A stretch of 26,110 nt of DNA from positions 1-26,110 of IMG/VR virus record IMGVR_UViG_3300043427_000226. One strand, written 5' to 3'. Numbering within the stretch: position 1 is the stretch's first letter; every line of letters starts with the position of its first letter. Positions 14,840-23,249 of the stretch are shown piece by piece. This DNA is from a virus. The position numbers were made by a program, and so were the translations under genes. Below the pieces are notes generated by a model that searched no databases, had not been told where the DNA came from, and worked only from the letters and a program-made list of their open reading frames with translations.

Positions 14840-16271
14840 TGGTCGGGCTGATAATCAATTCGGCCCCCATGATGGCCACTTTGACCGGGTCAGTCATGGA
14901 TAGCTCATAGACGCGATCCCGCAGCTTAAGCGTCATGCCCAGCCGCCTCCAAAACGTCCGGTGGCCATACGCACCGATTCTGCCAAGCGGCGACCAATGC
15001 TCATTTGACCAAGTGTGCCCGCCGTCATCTGACCAACGCAGCATGGCTTCGGGGTATGAGCCTTGGCCAGTATTTAACCCTACGCCTGTCTCACAGTCTA
15101 ATTGCAGGCTGTGGTGGGCCGTGCGCTTCAAGTTGTTCTGACCCGTGGGCAGCGCCCGCCAGGTGCGCAGCCACTTTTGAATCTGTCCATTGTCGGCGTA
15201 CACGTCAAGATCAAAGGCGTAGATGTTGCCGTTTTCAAAATCGCCAACGACAACCTCGTTGTTGAACGCCATCTGGCAGTTGCTGCGGTGCCGGGTAAAC
15301 GCGCCGTCAACAAAGCCGGCACGCTCATGCCAGGCTTGGGTGGCAGCGTCATACACCCAAGTGGTGTTGGCCGTGGGGAAAATCAGCACGTAAAAGCTGT
15401 GGCCATCCTGTTGATAAGTGTACGCAATGGCGTCCGACATATCGCTGTACTGCTGGATTTGCCATTCAACCGCATGGGTCGAGATGCGCTGGCCTTGGTA
15501 ACCGTTAGCCCGGTAGACAATACCTTGCCCCCGGCGATCCCGGCCCAGCCAAAACAGGCCGTTGTCCATCTTGGCGATGGAGTAAGGGGCCGCGCAGCCA
15601 AGCTCATTGAACGCGCCTTGGATGCGTTGCAGGGGGAAGTCTGTGGCGCCTGAGTCGTACCAGACCTCAATGGAATTGGTGCCAAAGGCCCAGACTTCGC
15701 GGAAGTTGGATACCACGGCCAGCAAGCCATCGGGCGACCCTTCGGTGCTGGCAAACTCAAGCGGGTCAATGGACGTGCCGTCCAAAAGGGTCGTGACCCA
15801 CATCTTTTGGCTATTGGGTTCGTTGAACACGAAATAGCCGTCCAAATAGCAGACCGTCACCGCGCCGGGAAAGTCGGGGTCAGTGATCTGGCCAAAAGCG
15901 TTTGTGGTGTTGTTGTAGATGTAGCTGGGGCCGTTGGCTGCGATGAACAGTTGCGTGCCGTTGTCGGCCATGCTGACCGGCCCAGAACCCGCTACGGTGC
16001 CAATCAGCGTGGGCACGTAGGCGTTGTTGATCTTGTAAAGCTCGGTGCCTGACACCACAAAGCCCACGCCATCGTTGGGTGAAAACGCCCACAAGCCCCG
16101 AACCGGGCCAGTGCCCACTGTTGACAAAAGCGTCAACCCTGGGCAACGCTGCAAGAATGCCGGCTCTTTACCGCCTTCGGGGATGACTTCTGGAAACAGA
16201 TTGACCATGCGAGCATCCGCAGCGTTGACGCTGCGGGTCACGTAGGTCGAGCCAAGGATAGGCGTTTTCAT
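14832..16271 (-). CDS. Packaged DNA stabilisation protein, P22 gp10 family
   Basis: 479 aa from the ATG at 16271 (TGATG overlap with the preceding gene). A TTG one codon upstream would add a residue but is less likely. P22 gp10 is 472 aa. The start MKTPILGSTYVTRSVNAADA followed by RMVNLFPEV is the family hallmark (serine/asparagine-rich then N-L-[FY]-P-E). Repeated beta-propeller-like blades with WAFSPNDGVGF, YLDGYFVF and WAFGTNSIEVWYDSG follow. gp10 forms the hexameric hub of the P22 tail below gp4 and closes the portal channel. The C-terminal half has the GxDGGHTWS-like element WSDDGGHTWSNEHWSPLG seen in this family. Confidence 0.92.
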   Translation of the reverse strand: MKTPILGSTYVTRSVNAADARMVNLFPEVIPEGGKEPAFLQRCPGLTLLSTVGTGPVRGLWAFSPNDGVGFVVSGTELYKINNAYVPTLIGTVAGSGPVSMADNGTQLFIAANGPSYIYNNTTNAFGQITDPDFPGAVTVCYLDGYFVFNEPNSQKMWVTTLLDGTSIDPLEFASTEGSPDGLLAVVSNFREVWAFGTNSIEVWYDSGATDFPLQRIQGAFNELGCAAPYSIAKMDNGLFWLGRDRRGQGIVYRANGYQGQRISTHAVEWQIQQYSDMSDAIAYTYQQDGHSFYVLIFPTANTTWVYDAATQAWHERAGFVDGAFTRHRSNCQMAFNNEVVVGDFENGNIYAFDLDVYADNGQIQKWLRTWRALPTGQNNLKRTAHHSLQLDCETGVGLNTGQGSYPEAMLRWSDDGGHTWSNEHWSPLGRIGAYGHRTFWRRLGMTLKLRDRVYELSMTDPVKVAIMGAELIISPTNA

Positions 16272-17002
16272 CAATAATTGCCGGCGTAGATGTTAAAGCG
16301 CTGGCGAGTCGCAATCAACGAGTACGGCATAGACATGATGTCATCAGGATTGTTGATGCGCTTCAAGTTGCGCTTGGACGTCATGGCGATGCGCTGCACT
16401 TGGGGGCTGGGCTCAACGCCAAACTCAGGCGCAAACTCCATGGCCAGGTTGTACACAAAAGCCCGTAGATACCCAGGCGGGAACAAAATGTCGGTTGCCA
16501 AATTGGCAGGCTGACTTAGCTCTTGCACGCTGACAAAGTGGAACTCAAGCAGACGTGTGGGGCGTGGGTAGATGTTGATCGTGACATCTGGGTAGGTCAT
16601 GTTGACGAACATGACTTGGGGAAAGGTTGAGGTTACGGTCTTGACCGCGATGCCGTTGTACTGCTGCTGATTGATCAGCTTAATGCCATACGACACCCCA
16701 GTGCCGGGGTCTTTAAAATAGGTGGCGTCGTCTACCAAAACAGGTCGCACGGCGGTGCCGTTTAGGCGCACTAGAGAACCGGTGGGGCCAAGGGTTTCTT
16801 CAATAGAGCCGACCGGCCAATTGACAATCTGGTCGATGGTACAGAAGACAGACAGACGCTCGGTGTTCCAAGAGTCAATCATCTGGTTGAGCGCCATTAA
16901 AGCGTCTTGAGACACCGATGCAGAAGGGGTTTCACCTTCGGCCAGCACACCCAGCAGCCGCAGCGCCCGGTTGATCTGATCGGCAGCGGTGTAGGTCGCC
17001 AT
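16271..17002 (-). CDS. Tail accessory factor, P22 gp4 family
   Basis: 243 aa, ATG at 17002 after a GGAG SD. The N-terminus TAADQINRALRLLGVLAEGE and the following QDALMALNQMIDSWNTERL match the helical core of the gp4 family, with the conserved W-x-x-E-[RK] group. A beta-rich region (VRPVLVDDATYFKDPGTGVS) and the LAMEFAPEFGVEPSPQVQRI element follow. It is longer than P22 gp4 (166 aa), as are many homologues in environmental phages. P22 gp4 binds the portal at the head-tail junction and has peptidoglycan-hydrolase activity; I see no clear catalytic site here. Located just before gp10, as in P22. Confidence 0.9.
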   Translation of the reverse strand: MATYTAADQINRALRLLGVLAEGETPSASVSQDALMALNQMIDSWNTERLSVFCTIDQIVNWPVGSIEETLGPTGSLVRLNGTAVRPVLVDDATYFKDPGTGVSYGIKLINQQQYNGIAVKTVTSTFPQVMFVNMTYPDVTINIYPRPTRLLEFHFVSVQELSQPANLATDILFPPGYLRAFVYNLAMEFAPEFGVEPSPQVQRIAMTSKRNLKRINNPDDIMSMPYSLIATRQRFNIYAGNY

Positions 17003-17004
17003 AT

Positions 17005-17202
17005 TTACGCTCCTTGTTCGACCGCCTCAACAGCCGGGCGGCCACGTCTACGTTTTACTTCCTGTGGAGCCGCCTCTTCAACAACAATCGGCGTGTCAAG
17101 AGTATAGCGTGTCCAGCCATTTCTTTCATCGTTCTCGGCTTCAAGTTCCATCGATGCAATCTTTGCGCCGTGGACAGGGTGAGACATGTAAATGATGGGC
17201 AT
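17005..17202 (-). CDS. Small AT-hook-like protein (65 aa)
   Basis: 65 aa, start MPIIYMSHPVHGAKIA with a later Met at codon 6. Neither start has an SD. The 17202 ATG abuts the U-tract of a terminator-like hairpin, so translation may be weak or coupled. The protein has an SHPVHGAKIASMELEAENDE segment, then GWTRYTLDTP, and a C-terminal VKRRRGRPAVE with the RGRP core of an AT-hook. This small type is common next to head genes in podoviruses and is usually hypothetical. Minor-groove DNA binding in the packaged head is possible but unproven. It precedes gp4 by 2 nt. Confidence 0.65.
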   Translation of the reverse strand: MPIIYMSHPVHGAKIASMELEAENDERNGWTRYTLDTPIVVEEAAPQEVKRRRGRPAVEAVEQGA

Positions 17203-17228
17203 AAAAAGAAGGGGGTGATTAGCCCCCT
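17203..17228 (-). terminator. Terminator/attenuator after the 73-aa gene
   Basis: On the minus strand AGGGGG (17228-17223) pairs with CCCCCT (17215-17210) over a 7-nt loop, followed by TCTTTTT. The U-tract ends exactly at the ATG of the next gene. The stem is GC-only apart from one A-T pair. It lies inside an operon, so partial termination (attenuation) is more likely than a full stop. Confidence 0.65.
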
Positions 17229-17235
17229 GGTTGGT

Positions 17236-17457
17236 TTAGGCAGTTATGCCAATGTTTTTCAACGCCACACGAAGCGCGTTAATTGCAGTCGCCAGTTCAG
17301 TACCGGTGGCGGTATTGGTGACGGCTGTGATGGCAGCAGCTTGGGCAACAGGCGTAGTGCCATAAAAGCCAGCAGTGCCGCCGGCAGTGCCAATGATTGC
17401 ACCGTCAAGTTGCGGGTCTTCGTACGCAACACCAACAGGTTTAGTGTTTGTAGGCAT
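17236..17457 (-). CDS. Small virion-associated protein (73 aa)
   Basis: 73 aa, ATG at 17457 after an AAGGAAC SD that overlaps the U-tract of the upstream hairpin. Features: DPQLDGAIIGTAGGTAGFYG, then TPVAQAAAITAVTNTATG, and a helical end ALRVALKNIG. This small, Gly/Ala/Thr-rich type with a GFYG-x-TPVAQ motif is frequent downstream of coat genes in phages and is probably a head-fibre or decoration component. It could also be a minor capsid protein. The pattern is familiar, but I know of no proven function. Confidence 0.7.
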   Translation of the reverse strand: MPTNTKPVGVAYEDPQLDGAIIGTAGGTAGFYGTTPVAQAAAITAVTNTATGTELATAINALRVALKNIGITA

Positions 17458-17468
17458 GATTGTTCCTT

Positions 17469-17489
17469 AAAAACAGGGGCCGAAGCCCC
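17469..17489 (-). terminator. Terminator/attenuator after the 135-aa gene
   Basis: On the minus strand GGGGC (17489-17485), tetraloop TTCG, GCCCC (17480-17476), then TGTTTTT. A 5-bp all-GC stem with a UUCG loop and a U-tract is a classic intrinsic terminator. It sits between two small virion genes, and the U-tract runs into the AAGGA SD of the next gene, so it probably passes a fraction of transcripts. Confidence 0.72.
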
Positions 17490-17497
17490 CATTAGGT

Positions 17498-17905
17498 TTA
17501 CTTCAAAAACGCCGAATAGGCTGCGTCACCAGTACGCACGAAACGGTACGTGTGCGCACCAAAACGTGGGACAGTCACAGAGCCAAAGATCGTAATACCA
17601 GTGCCTGTGGTAACAGGAACGGTAGACGATGAGCCGGTGTTGTTGTTGTTGCAAATGGTCAATTCAAAAGCTGAACCAACTTTTGCGCTAGGAATAGCTG
17701 CATCAAGCAACGCTGCGGTGGGCAACGTAACTGTCAATGTAGCGTCCGAGGCTTTTGCACAAACAACCAAACCAACCGCCACTTGAGCGGCGGTCAAAGT
17801 GGTGTCGCCGGTCAAAGTTGCGGGGATGGTTTGTACGGTGAGTTGAGCTTCAGTCAGATTGCCGTCACCAACTTGGTAACCGCCTGCGCCGTTAGGTAAT
17901 GCCAT
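17498..17905 (-). CDS. Beta-rich capsid decoration-type protein (135 aa)
   Basis: 135 aa from the ATG at 17905, behind an AAAGGAAA SD; the in-frame upstream Met at 17953 would read through the coat hairpin. Starts MALPNGAGGYQVGDGNLTEA. The sequence TLTVTLPTAALLDAAIPSAK, then FELTICNNN, TTGTGITIFGSVTVP and HTYRFVRTGDAAYSAF is a beta-sandwich of the knob type seen in phage decoration and fibre proteins. Its position right after coat and its strong SD point to an abundant head-surface protein. Weak resemblance to the C-terminal knob of the 456-aa protein (13469-14839) suggests a shared fold family. Confidence 0.7.
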   Translation of the reverse strand: MALPNGAGGYQVGDGNLTEAQLTVQTIPATLTGDTTLTAAQVAVGLVVCAKASDATLTVTLPTAALLDAAIPSAKVGSAFELTICNNNNTGSSSTVPVTTGTGITIFGSVTVPRFGAHTYRFVRTGDAAYSAFLK

Positions 17906-17918
17906 GATAATTTCCTTT

Positions 17919-17956
17919 AAAAAAGTTACGAAATGAAGCCCCCGAAGGGGCATTCA
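17919..17956 (-). terminator. Terminator/attenuator after the coat gene
   Basis: On the minus strand TGAA-t-GCCCC (17956-17947), loop TTCG, GGGGC-TTCA (17942-17934): nine base pairs with one bulged base. A TTT directly follows, and a TTTTTT run (17924-17919) lies about 10 nt further, just ahead of the next SD. The discontinuous tract suggests partial termination or an RNA 3'-end protector after the highly expressed coat gene. Confidence 0.6.
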
Positions 17957-17959
17957 AGA

Positions 17960-19159
17960 TCAACCCCAAATGCGGCAGGCCATCTGAGGACGAATGGTGG
18001 AGAAGCCATACAACACGTCGATACGGCAAGGCATACGGTCGTTGTTGATGTCGTACTGGCGAACCACACGCAAGCTGATGCCATTGTGGACGGCGCGCGC
18101 AGCCATGTCGACGCCTTGGGGCAGCAACAAGTCAGCGGTGGCGAACGTGATGGCGTCCTTGTGGTAGACCAAGTTCTGGGGGTACTGAGTTGAAGCAGCG
18201 CCCACAAACACCACAGCTTTGTTGTTACCAGGCAAGGTCAGCATGGTAGCCAGAGCGTGGCTGGCCGAGTACATCGGCGCAACGGTCACAGTGGCGGTTG
18301 TGGTGCTGGTCGAGGAGGCCAAAGCCACAAACTGGAACAGCGAGCCGGTGGACTCACGGGTCTGTGGGTTCACGGCGTAGCAGTCAGCAATGGTAAACAC
18401 GTCACCAACGGCGATGGTTTCACCAGAGCCAACAGTCAGCGTCAGCGTCGCAGAGCCTTCAGCGGTCACGGCGGCAGCAGTGACGGTGCCGGTAGCGGCG
18501 CGGGTGCCAGTGGAGTGCTGCTTGATCGACTGAGACATGTTGATCTCGTCAAAGCCCAACACACCCATGCCCATCATGCCATTCTTGAACTGGCGGCTGA
18601 TGGTATCGGTGGGGTTGAACAGACCCTTCATGCCTTCAACCAAACCAGCGTTAGCGGCGGGGTTGACGGTGGCATAACGGGGGCTCATCACAGCGGCGTT
18701 CTCGTTCAGCTTCTGCTGGGCTTGCAACAGCACCAAAGAGGTCGAAGGAGTGGTGCCAGGCGTGCCCACGGTGTTACCGATGCTCTTGTAAGCATTGGCA
18801 ACGTCGGCATCGATGGAGCTGGCCAACTGGCTGATACGAGGCTTCAACACACGCTCTGCGAAGTCATCCAATTGCATGGTCAATTCAGCAGATGTGAAGT
18901 TGACACCAATGTGCTTTTGGCTGGCCACGGTCAAGGTGGTGAACTGTTCGTTGTCGTCTTGAACTTGCAAGGCGGCACCGTCGGTCACCAAAGCGCGATC
19001 AGGCAGGCGAATACGCAGGGTCGAACCAATCTTGGCACCTTCAACAGCAAAGCTGTCGTCGTACTGACGGTTCACGTTACGGGTCAACACAAGGTTGTTT
19101 TCGAGAATCTCAAGCGCTTTGCGCGTGATCATGTCGATGGTTAAGATACTGTTAGCCAT
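17960..19159 (-). CDS. Major coat protein, P22 gp5 family
   Basis: 399 aa (P22 gp5 has 430), ATG at 19159 with an AAAGGA SD. The N-terminus MANSILTIDMITRKALEILE followed by NNLVLTRNVNRQYDD is the signature of the P22 coat family, as are GSTLRIRLPDRALVTDGAAL and QKHIGVNFTSAELTMQLDDF. The C-terminal HNGISLRVVRQYDINNDRMP and RIDVLYGFSTIRP complete the HK97-like fold. An Ala/Thr-rich insertion around residues 225-265 (TGTVTAAAVTAEGSATLTLT) is in the place of the accessory I-domain. It forms the icosahedral shell. Scaffold lies directly upstream and decoration-like genes directly downstream. Confidence 0.95.
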   Translation of the reverse strand: MANSILTIDMITRKALEILENNLVLTRNVNRQYDDSFAVEGAKIGSTLRIRLPDRALVTDGAALQVQDDNEQFTTLTVASQKHIGVNFTSAELTMQLDDFAERVLKPRISQLASSIDADVANAYKSIGNTVGTPGTTPSTSLVLLQAQQKLNENAAVMSPRYATVNPAANAGLVEGMKGLFNPTDTISRQFKNGMMGMGVLGFDEINMSQSIKQHSTGTRAATGTVTAAAVTAEGSATLTLTVGSGETIAVGDVFTIADCYAVNPQTRESTGSLFQFVALASSTSTTTATVTVAPMYSASHALATMLTLPGNNKAVVFVGAASTQYPQNLVYHKDAITFATADLLLPQGVDMAARAVHNGISLRVVRQYDINNDRMPCRIDVLYGFSTIRPQMACRIWG

Positions 19160-20532: not shown

Positions 20533-21933
20533 TTAAGCCAAGTTTGCCATTGGTTTCCAAGTGCCAGGGGTTCCCGCAACGGTGCAGACCCAGCCAGCGG
20601 GTTGCCCCGTGGCTGGCGCAGAGTTCATCACAACGTCTGTCACCCGCCAAGTGCCAGTTGTGGGCACTGCTGATTGTTTTCTAGGTAGATACACACCGCT
20701 CTCTGCGTTGTTTTCAAGTATTAATAAGCCGCCAGTGTAATTTGCGGCAATATCTACAAAAAGGGCTTTGGCAAAATAGTTATACCCAATGTAGACAGGT
20801 GCTTCAAGTACACTTCCAACAAAAATGCTGTTACCTGGAACCGAAGATATGCACCGATTGTTTTCAACAAAACATTGACCAGGGCTATTTAATTGAATGT
20901 CGTTGGTAGTCATTCCAACGATATGATTTCCTGTGAGCCTGTTGTGATATTGATTTGTGTTTGCGGCGGCATTGATACGAATGCCCGCAGGTACTGTCCC
21001 AGTTGCTATGCAGACATTCCCTTCAATATTTATTTGTGACTGTATAGGTGACGCAAGACCCAATCCGTAGATGCAAGCGTCCCCTGCGCCAGCGCTGTCA
21101 ACTTGAATGTAATTATTTTTTATATTAAATATGTTGCTTACCGAACCATATCTAATGCCATTAACAGTTGATTCCAAATCATTGTCAAGAATGTTTACAA
21201 AAATGGCGGAGCCGATAAAAATATCGCTATTAAATCCGTATATCAAATTACCAATTACATGGATGCCTTCGCAGCCAGTGCCGTCCATAAACACGCCATA
21301 TTCATCGGCTGAACCGCTAAACGAATCGCCGCCTTCAAAAATTATTGTGTTGTTGCATACATTGTGATTTAACGCATATACTCCAAAGTTAAATGGATTG
21401 TTTATTTTGGATATTTGCAAGTCTCTAAAACTGCATTGCCAAGTGTTGTTAATTATAAAACCTTGGTTGAAATCCCTAATGCGTAATCTGCTGAAATTTA
21501 AACCATCTCTTGAGTCAACGCCGACAGTCCCACCTGGGGGCAATATAGACTCTACCGCAGCCCAATTTGCTGTTGAGCCAACTGCACCTTGAAGTCCAAA
21601 ATCTTGGTAGAACATGCACCCGTTGTCGTATGACGCAGATGTAAAATTTAAGCCATTGCAAGACCTTGGGTATAAAGTAGATACAGAACCGCCTTCACCA
21701 AATATGGACACACCAAAGGGAATTGTTAAAGCTGAATCAATGCGATATTTTCCTGTTGGGATAAATATTGCACCGCCGCCCGCCGCATTAACCGCAGTGA
21801 TAGCAGCTTGGATGGCAGTTGCGTTATTTGTTCCTGCGCCTGTTGAGGTGTTGTAGTCTGCTACTGCGCCGTAATCCAAGATATTGGCGACAGCGCCAGT
21901 AATCATTGAATATGAAACTTTAGTAAGTGCCAT
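20533..21933 (-). CDS. Tailspike with pectate-lyase-like beta-helix
   Basis: 466 aa, ATG at 21933 after an AAAGG SD. Residues 17-80 (DYGAVADYNTSTGAGTNNAT, AIQAAITAVNAAGGGAIFIP and GKYRIDSALTIPFGVSIFGE) are the classic start of a pectate lyase superfamily beta-helix. Many Asn-rich turns follow (NIEGN, ENNRC, ILENNAES), typical of right-handed beta-helix rungs. The C-terminus has GTWRVTDVVMNSAP and GWVCTVAGTPGTWKPM, a trimerisation/knob module. It probably binds and may degrade a surface polysaccharide. No active site can be placed from sequence. The coding is visibly richer in A/T than neighbouring head genes, which fits recent exchange. Confidence 0.85.
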   Translation of the reverse strand: MALTKVSYSMITGAVANILDYGAVADYNTSTGAGTNNATAIQAAITAVNAAGGGAIFIPTGKYRIDSALTIPFGVSIFGEGGSVSTLYPRSCNGLNFTSASYDNGCMFYQDFGLQGAVGSTANWAAVESILPPGGTVGVDSRDGLNFSRLRIRDFNQGFIINNTWQCSFRDLQISKINNPFNFGVYALNHNVCNNTIIFEGGDSFSGSADEYGVFMDGTGCEGIHVIGNLIYGFNSDIFIGSAIFVNILDNDLESTVNGIRYGSVSNIFNIKNNYIQVDSAGAGDACIYGLGLASPIQSQINIEGNVCIATGTVPAGIRINAAANTNQYHNRLTGNHIVGMTTNDIQLNSPGQCFVENNRCISSVPGNSIFVGSVLEAPVYIGYNYFAKALFVDIAANYTGGLLILENNAESGVYLPRKQSAVPTTGTWRVTDVVMNSAPATGQPAGWVCTVAGTPGTWKPMANLA

Positions 21934-23082: not shown

Positions 23083-23087
23083 TTAGG

Positions 23088-23249
23088 TCACTCCAAAAGA
23101 ATCAAACCACCGTCCTCTTGGACGAGATTGTCATTGTTTTCGCACAACAAATTGCCGATAATGATCTCGGCATGCTTTCCAGAAACCAACGTGGCAATAC
23201 CGCCAAGACCAATGGCTACTGCGTTGCGAAGAGCGACACCAAAGCTCAT
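23088..23249 (-). CDS. Small protein (53 aa) in the receptor-binding cassette
   Basis: 53 aa, starting MSFGVALRNAVAIGLGGIAT and ending GGLILLE. The ATG overlaps the stop of the preceding gene (ATGA) and the stop is 5 nt before the next gene, whose SD it contains. The first half is hydrophobic and helical, and the second contains LLCENNDNLVQEDGGLILLE, a strand-turn-strand ending typical of the last residues of phage appendage proteins. Similar short proteins with an N-V-x-x-E-D-G-x-x-L-I-x-E end are found beside fibre genes. Function unknown. Confidence 0.65.
   Translation of the reverse strand: MSFGVALRNAVAIGLGGIATLVSGKHAEIIIGNLLCENNDNLVQEDGGLILLE

Follow-up and report, generated by a model that had tools for sequence, protein, structure and literature searches.

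In a freshwater phage whose coat protein is of the P22 type, three GC-rich hairpins stand in series within the virion operon, one each behind the coat gene and two small genes whose products are predicted to sit on the capsid surface. As judged by sequence comparison of related loci, these hairpins are real, selected RNA elements and not chance structures. This conclusion is based on compensatory change in the stem arms, on the location of the characteristic loops on the transcript strand, and on the concentration of terminator-like matches in the three gaps concerned. Each hairpin most likely acts both as a weak intrinsic terminator and as a barrier at the 3' end of the message.

Gene order around the hairpins

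The window, which is the whole viral fragment of 26,110 bases that was analyzed, carries its virion genes on the minus strand in the order portal, tailspike-like protein, scaffold, coat, 135-aa product, 73-aa product, 65-aa product, head-tail adaptor, and head closure. The product of the major coat protein gene (17960 to 19159) belongs to the P22 coat family (Pfam PF11651, 134.9 bits; PHROG 283, major head protein). It is followed by the genes for the 135-aa protein (17498 to 17905) and the 73-aa protein (17236 to 17457) and by the 65-aa gene (17005 to 17202), which abuts the adaptor gene (16271 to 17002; PHROG 637, Ad3) in the position of P22 gp4. The 65-aa gene is the counterpart of P22 orf69 by position and weakly by sequence; its product shares 41% identity with an 81-aa product of phage DSL-LC05, and the match to P22 orf69 is weak. 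Three gaps, of 54, 40, and 33 nt, separate the genes from coat to the 65-aa gene, and each of them contains one GC hairpin. No other gap in this part of the operon exceeds about 25 nt.

A 163-nt gap at positions 23083 to 23245 was considered as a fourth regulatory gap and rejected, because a reading of the sequence revealed a 53-aa open reading frame inside, which is annotated likewise in DSL-LC05. The tailspike-like gene (20533 to 21933, minus strand), the product of which has a pectate-lyase fold, is located between portal and scaffold and upstream of coat; this place is unusual, and the order in DSL-LC05 is identical. Searches of the window matched no Rfam family and found neither tRNA nor tmRNA.

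Structure of the hairpins and their U-rich tails

All three hairpins possess, on the transcript strand, a GC-rich stem of at least 5 pairs and a loop of 3 to 8 nt, as in the stem of an intrinsic terminator. Hairpin 1, GCCCC-UUCG-GGGGC (17938 to 17951, minus strand, as for all features of this section), is GC-only, begins 8 nt past the coat stop codon, and is followed by UUCAUUUCG; its stem can be extended to about 17956 to 17934. Hairpin 2, GGGGC-UUCG-GCCCC (17476 to 17489), lies behind the 135-aa gene and is followed by UGUUUUU, and hairpin 3, AGGGGG-CUAAUCA-CCCCCU (17210 to 17228), lies behind the 73-aa gene and is followed by UCUUUUUAUG. A first-pass annotation of this DNA had placed one hairpin behind each of these three genes and had described two UUCG loops with GC-only cores; reading of the minus strand confirmed both statements.

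The same annotation had the U-tracts merge with the Shine-Dalgarno (SD) sequence or start codon of the next gene. This was the case for hairpin 2, the U-tract of which runs into the SD of the 73-aa gene (UGUUUUUAAGGAA, 17463 to 17475), and for hairpin 3, where the U-tract UUCUUUUU (17203 to 17210) reaches the AUG of the next gene, the 65-aa gene, with no SD between this AUG and the stem. It was not the case for hairpin 1. Directly 3' of its stem is UUCAUUUCGUAAC, and the tract there is only weakly U-rich (UUCAUUUC), in contrast to the U-rich tracts directly 3' of the stems of hairpins 2 and 3, which are present in the window as well as in the relatives. A run of six U residues (17924 to 17919) begins 13 nt past the stem of hairpin 1, beside the SD UUUUUUAAAGGAAA of the 135-aa gene. 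As a terminator tail of hairpin 1, this run was rejected. Relatives that lack the hairpin have it as often, and it occurs also in the coat leader, so that the run and the SD (together 17911 to 17924) form the ribosome-binding site.

Among the relatives, the T fraction at positions 1 to 5 past hairpin 2 was 0.90, 0.94, 0.89, 0.85, and 0.77, and that past hairpin 3 was 0.92, 0.92, 0.58, 0.79, and 0.65, compared with 0.71, 0.55, 0.45, and 0.41 past hairpin 1. Since no SD follows hairpin 3 in the window that could explain the U-rich stretch, this stretch supports the reading as a terminator. In most relatives, 8 to 10 nt without an SD separate hairpin 3 from the AUG of the 65-aa gene (17210 to 17200 in the window), and SD-like purine runs are found just before stem 3 in the loci L016, L040, L044, L046, and L073.

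Conservation and selection

The relatives were 80 IMG/VR loci with coat proteins 86 to 100% identical, the best 80 of at least 600 candidates, among which near kin are over-represented. In the relatives kept in the analysis, a hairpin was present in 49 of 67 distinct sequences of gap 1, in all 62 of gap 2, and in all 53 of gap 3, compared with none of 49 distinct sequences of the coat gene's own leader, which served as the control gap. Conservation in relatives, named in the first-pass annotation as a check of its proposal, was thus found. Hairpin 1 is absent from 18 of the 67 distinct relatives, about a quarter; single-locus exceptions are L021 without hairpin 2 and L024 without hairpin 3.

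The arms of the stems differ between relatives in both halves while pairing is kept. Covariation reached 0.92 to 0.94, compared with maxima of 0.32 to 0.37 in shuffles, and for hairpin 3, with 20 distinct stems, it was 0.93 compared with at most 0.32; as folding served to locate the stems, the fraction of pairs does not by itself count as independent evidence. When a strict hairpin-plus-U (T) rule was applied to 32 long loci (357 kb), 65 of the 105 sense matches were within the three gaps, which comprise 3.8 kb or 1% of the DNA. This is an approximately 150-fold enrichment over the rest of the loci.

UUCG, UACG, UCCG, or UUUG loops closed by C-G were found in 42, 52, and 19 distinct sequences of gaps 1, 2, and 3, respectively, on the sense strand, and in 1, 0, and 2 on the antisense strand. 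This bias of the loop sequences toward the transcript strand points to RNA. An inverted repeat or recombination site at the DNA level is therefore improbable, for hairpins 1 and 2 at any rate; in gap 3, the folding energy had no bias toward the sense strand (19 versus 33).

Probable partial termination and protection of the message

The terminator scores of hairpins 1, 2, and 3 in the window were -11.2, -4.4, and -3.3, respectively, which are modest values that shuffled sequence sometimes exceeded. The same scoring code gave -16.4 for TJ and +27.6 for TH of phiX174, +22.3 for T7 Tphi, and +10.3 for the P22 stem-loop; it is a rough guide, since TF and TG of phiX174 scored below -50 and are mapped terminators nevertheless. 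Measured termination efficiencies in phiX174 are 40 to 60% for TJ, TF, and TG and 90% for TH (PMC11527146). The three scores of the window are between those of TJ (about 40 to 60%) and TH (about 90%), which would fit partial termination and protection of the 3' end. For hairpin 1, the U-tract is poor not only in the window but in most relatives, too, with 29% of the relatives scoring above 0.

In the stretch from the hairpins to the tail genes, no conserved sigma-70-like promoter matching at least 10 of 12 positions was found. This indicates that the downstream genes, beginning with the adaptor gene, would be reached by read-through. In having several terminator-like hairpins behind consecutive structural genes of one operon, without a promoter signal between them, the window resembles the serial ladder of phiX174 in its arrangement. 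The proposal of three consecutive attenuator-type hairpins in the first-pass annotation agrees with their conservation with compensatory change, the U-rich sequence past hairpins 2 and 3, and scores in the class of partial terminators.

If each hairpin acts in this way, RNA polymerase would pause at the U-rich stretch and a share of the complexes would be released, while the remaining polymerase would read on into the next gene, the ribosome-binding site of which starts immediately. The stem would block 3'-to-5' nucleases, and the shorter messages ending behind coat would be longer-lived. With a stem 6 to 8 nt past the stop codon, a ribosome finishing translation may cover the 5' arm, so that termination would stay partial. 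Three such sites in series would make the transcript level fall past coat toward the genes for adaptor and tail.

Lambda and P22 use a Q-type antiterminator, and by analogy the hairpins might be bypassed if the present phage uses one, too. The hairpins may then be 3' barriers only, which shield the messages for coat and decoration proteins once processing or decay has occurred, with antiterminated late transcription and no useful termination. This is the less probable reading. The hairpin is kept in many relatives in which the U-tract varies or is absent, with almost no U-tract left in gap 2 of L058 and gap 1 of L065, and the hairpin of gap 1 is tight on the upstream stop codon (7 nt) and not on the downstream start codon (about 28 nt). 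Lambda, HK97, and P22 have such stem-loops within operons, and TJ of phiX174 stabilizes mRNA (PMC3335065). A barrier, however, needs no T-rich run, and such a run is located directly past hairpins 2 and 3 in most relatives, with T at 90% or more at positions 1 and 2. Termination and protection are compatible roles that do not exclude each other.

The terminator-like hairpin with the highest score in the window is located elsewhere, at positions 791 to 772 on the minus strand (GGUGGGGC-UUCG-GCCCUGCC followed by UUUUCCAUG). It lies 7 nt past the stop codon of a 211-aa gene (799 to 1434), which has an exonuclease gene as its neighbor, and shortly ahead of a methyltransferase-like start. This spot is variable in the relatives, some of which have other hairpins and others an overlap with the next gene.

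Distance to the stop codon and sequence turnover

The distance from the stop codon to the first GC pair is mostly 6 to 8 nt, with maxima of 9, 9, and 13 nt in gaps 1, 2, and 3 of the relatives. This position is constant across the relatives while the sequence of the hairpin changes. On the coat tree, hairpin 1 requires at least 8 gains or losses and at least 20 changes among four classes when absence is counted as one of them. L001 and the window have identical coat proteins, and gap 1 contains GGGGC-UUCG-GCCCC in L001 and GCCCC-UUCG-GGGGC in the window. To judge from the two sequences, this difference is a swapping of the arms with the UUCG loop kept and not an inversion, and a segment of about 25 nt was replaced.

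The near-fixed distance of 6 to 8 nt, seen at all three places in almost every relative whatever the hairpin sequence, suggests masking of the 5' arm by the ribosome. The three hairpins may accordingly be translation-sensitive attenuators, where the ribosome finishing the coat or decoration gene sets the read-through of the polymerase; this is a tentative idea that is probably not correct in this form. As a part of it, and just as doubtful, selection may act on position and fold only, because the hairpin sequence is freely exchanged. If the hairpins were such attenuators, expression of head and tail genes would track the ribosome supply.

Alternatively, the hairpins may act on translation itself by insulating the next ribosome-binding site, by preventing re-initiation, or, as in gene 38 of T4, by bringing start signals close to each other. 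In gaps 2 and 3, the stems are near an SD or AUG. Ahead of the 65-aa gene, the stretch from stem to AUG mostly lacks an SD, and the SD-like purines before stem 3 are found in several relatives. Hairpin 1, on the other hand, is about 28 nt away from the start codon, the ribosome-binding site there is the same with or without the hairpin, and the U-tracts would be left unexplained, which makes this the least probable of the explanations considered.

Hairpins and capsid-surface genes

The AlphaFold2 model of the 135-aa protein had a pLDDT of 86, and its best Foldseek match in the PDB was 9ny6_C, a capsid spike from Pseudomonas phage Pa223 (E value of 4.7e-5, probability of 1.00), with a TM score of only 0.43 on the query. 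The model thus shares a capsid spike fold by this match, and the gene is predicted to encode a capsid spike or decoration protein, also with regard to a match to PHROG 673 at 1.4e-7. In an alignment of relatives, the 73-aa family, which is head-fiber-like, combines a constant N-terminal leader of about 17 to 20 residues, M-x-NTK-x-[IV]GVA[YF], with swapped C-terminal parts of at least six kinds, unrelated by eye. The family resembles a capsid anchor with interchangeable display domains. One close member matches PHROG 6994, head fiber protein, at 1.9e-5. A beta-type variant of the 73-aa gene gave a model with a pLDDT of 66 and no PDB match below 1e-3, and a sequence-profile search of the PDB with the 135-aa, 73-aa, and beta-type proteins gave no credible match. 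From models and sequence matches together, it is reasonable to name the 135-aa and 73-aa products putative decoration proteins.

In P22, VvAW1, and PAE2, the coat gene is followed by one hairpin and the orf69-like gene, with no added gene. With one gene added, DSL-LC05 and PBR31 contain two hairpins; with two genes added, the window contains three. Genes added elsewhere, namely a 53-aa gene in L002 and L005 and extra genes in L052 and L079, are without hairpins. Since the number of hairpins tracks the capsid-surface genes and genes added elsewhere have none, the hairpins belong to the coat and capsid-surface genes. The inserts in L052 (5387 to 5962) and L079 (3269 to 3778) are located between the 65-aa and adaptor genes and resemble, by eye, GIY-YIG homing endonucleases.

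This correlation may also reflect the history of the region without any tuning of expression. The decoration genes may have been added singly between coat and the orf69-like gene in the manner of morons, each bringing its own hairpin, as would fit the stepwise numbers (none added, one hairpin; one added, two; two added, three), the mosaic distribution of the 135-aa and 73-aa genes among relatives, and the annotated moron with its own terminator in HK97. There is no promoter beside the added genes, however, selection keeps the hairpins with compensatory change long after their gain, and the genes of L002, L005, L052, and L079 arrived without hairpins. History as the sole explanation is rather unlikely.

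Among the annotated phage records examined, a hairpin was found behind the coat gene in 12 of 14, the two without being cta1H496 and phiAX1. The window shares the arrangement of the P22 family, a PF11651 coat gene with a stem-loop before the next gene, which is annotated as stem_loop in the P22 record. A DNA search of phage records with the region gave a sole match of 65 bp, in DSL-LC05.

Relation to known systems

Terminator hairpins behind capsid genes are already known as a kind from phiX174, lambda, HK97, P22, and T7. The putative P22 stem-loop behind gene 5 (NC_002371, 6102 to 6119), AGGGGC-UGCG-GCCCCU followed by UUUCUUUAUGGAG, occupies the equal place behind a homologous coat gene. It is a single hairpin, in contrast to the window, because in P22 no decoration gene separates gene 5 from orf69. 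The P22 record describes its location as similar to those of the stem-loops of HK97 and lambda. HK97 has annotated putative terminators behind gp5 (coat) and other late genes inside the late operon. The D-E and E-FI gaps of lambda fold alike, inside the late operon beside coat and decoration genes, with a CUUCGG loop in E-FI; late transcription of lambda is antiterminated. HK97 and lambda, however, represent another head lineage with another gene order. In T7 (Tphi) and LUZ100, a terminator directly behind the major capsid gene allows read-through to the tail genes (PMC10134795). This terminator, however, is stronger and stands alone, and the polymerase reading it is that of the phage, which has a local promoter.

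A close likeness is also seen to phiX174, where the partial rho-independent terminators TJ, TF, TG, and TH follow the structural genes J, F, G, and H in series and successively less mRNA is found past each of the four (PMC3335065). TJ, in the J-F gap, has the identical GGGGC-UUCG-GCCCC stem-loop as hairpin 2, a few nucleotides past a stop codon and running into an SD, and when it was disrupted, the upstream message decayed faster (PMC3335065). In contrast to the present phage, phiX174 is a single-stranded DNA microvirus with unrelated proteins, TF and TG are far weaker folds, and the efficiencies were measured in phiX174.

The first-pass annotation had interpreted the ladder as a device for stoichiometry. 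The attenuator-type hairpins of this proposal are retained, and, provided that the terminators work, a falling series of transcripts from coat to the tail genes is to be expected. An extension of this to the proteins does not follow, because portal and scaffold are upstream of coat with no hairpin between them and because the mRNA differences along the phiX174 ladder are not mirrored in protein amounts (PMC3335065).

No earlier report of such hairpins in the present phage group was found in the literature searched. Added here are comparative proof of selection, the link between hairpin number and capsid-surface genes, the fixed distance from stop codon to stem, and the fast turnover of the hairpin sequence. 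These phages differ in the number of hairpins (two or three), in the strength of the U-tracts, and in the presence or absence of a hairpin behind nearly identical coat genes, and so provide a large natural series that would allow a direct test of how late gene dosage is tuned without extra promoters.
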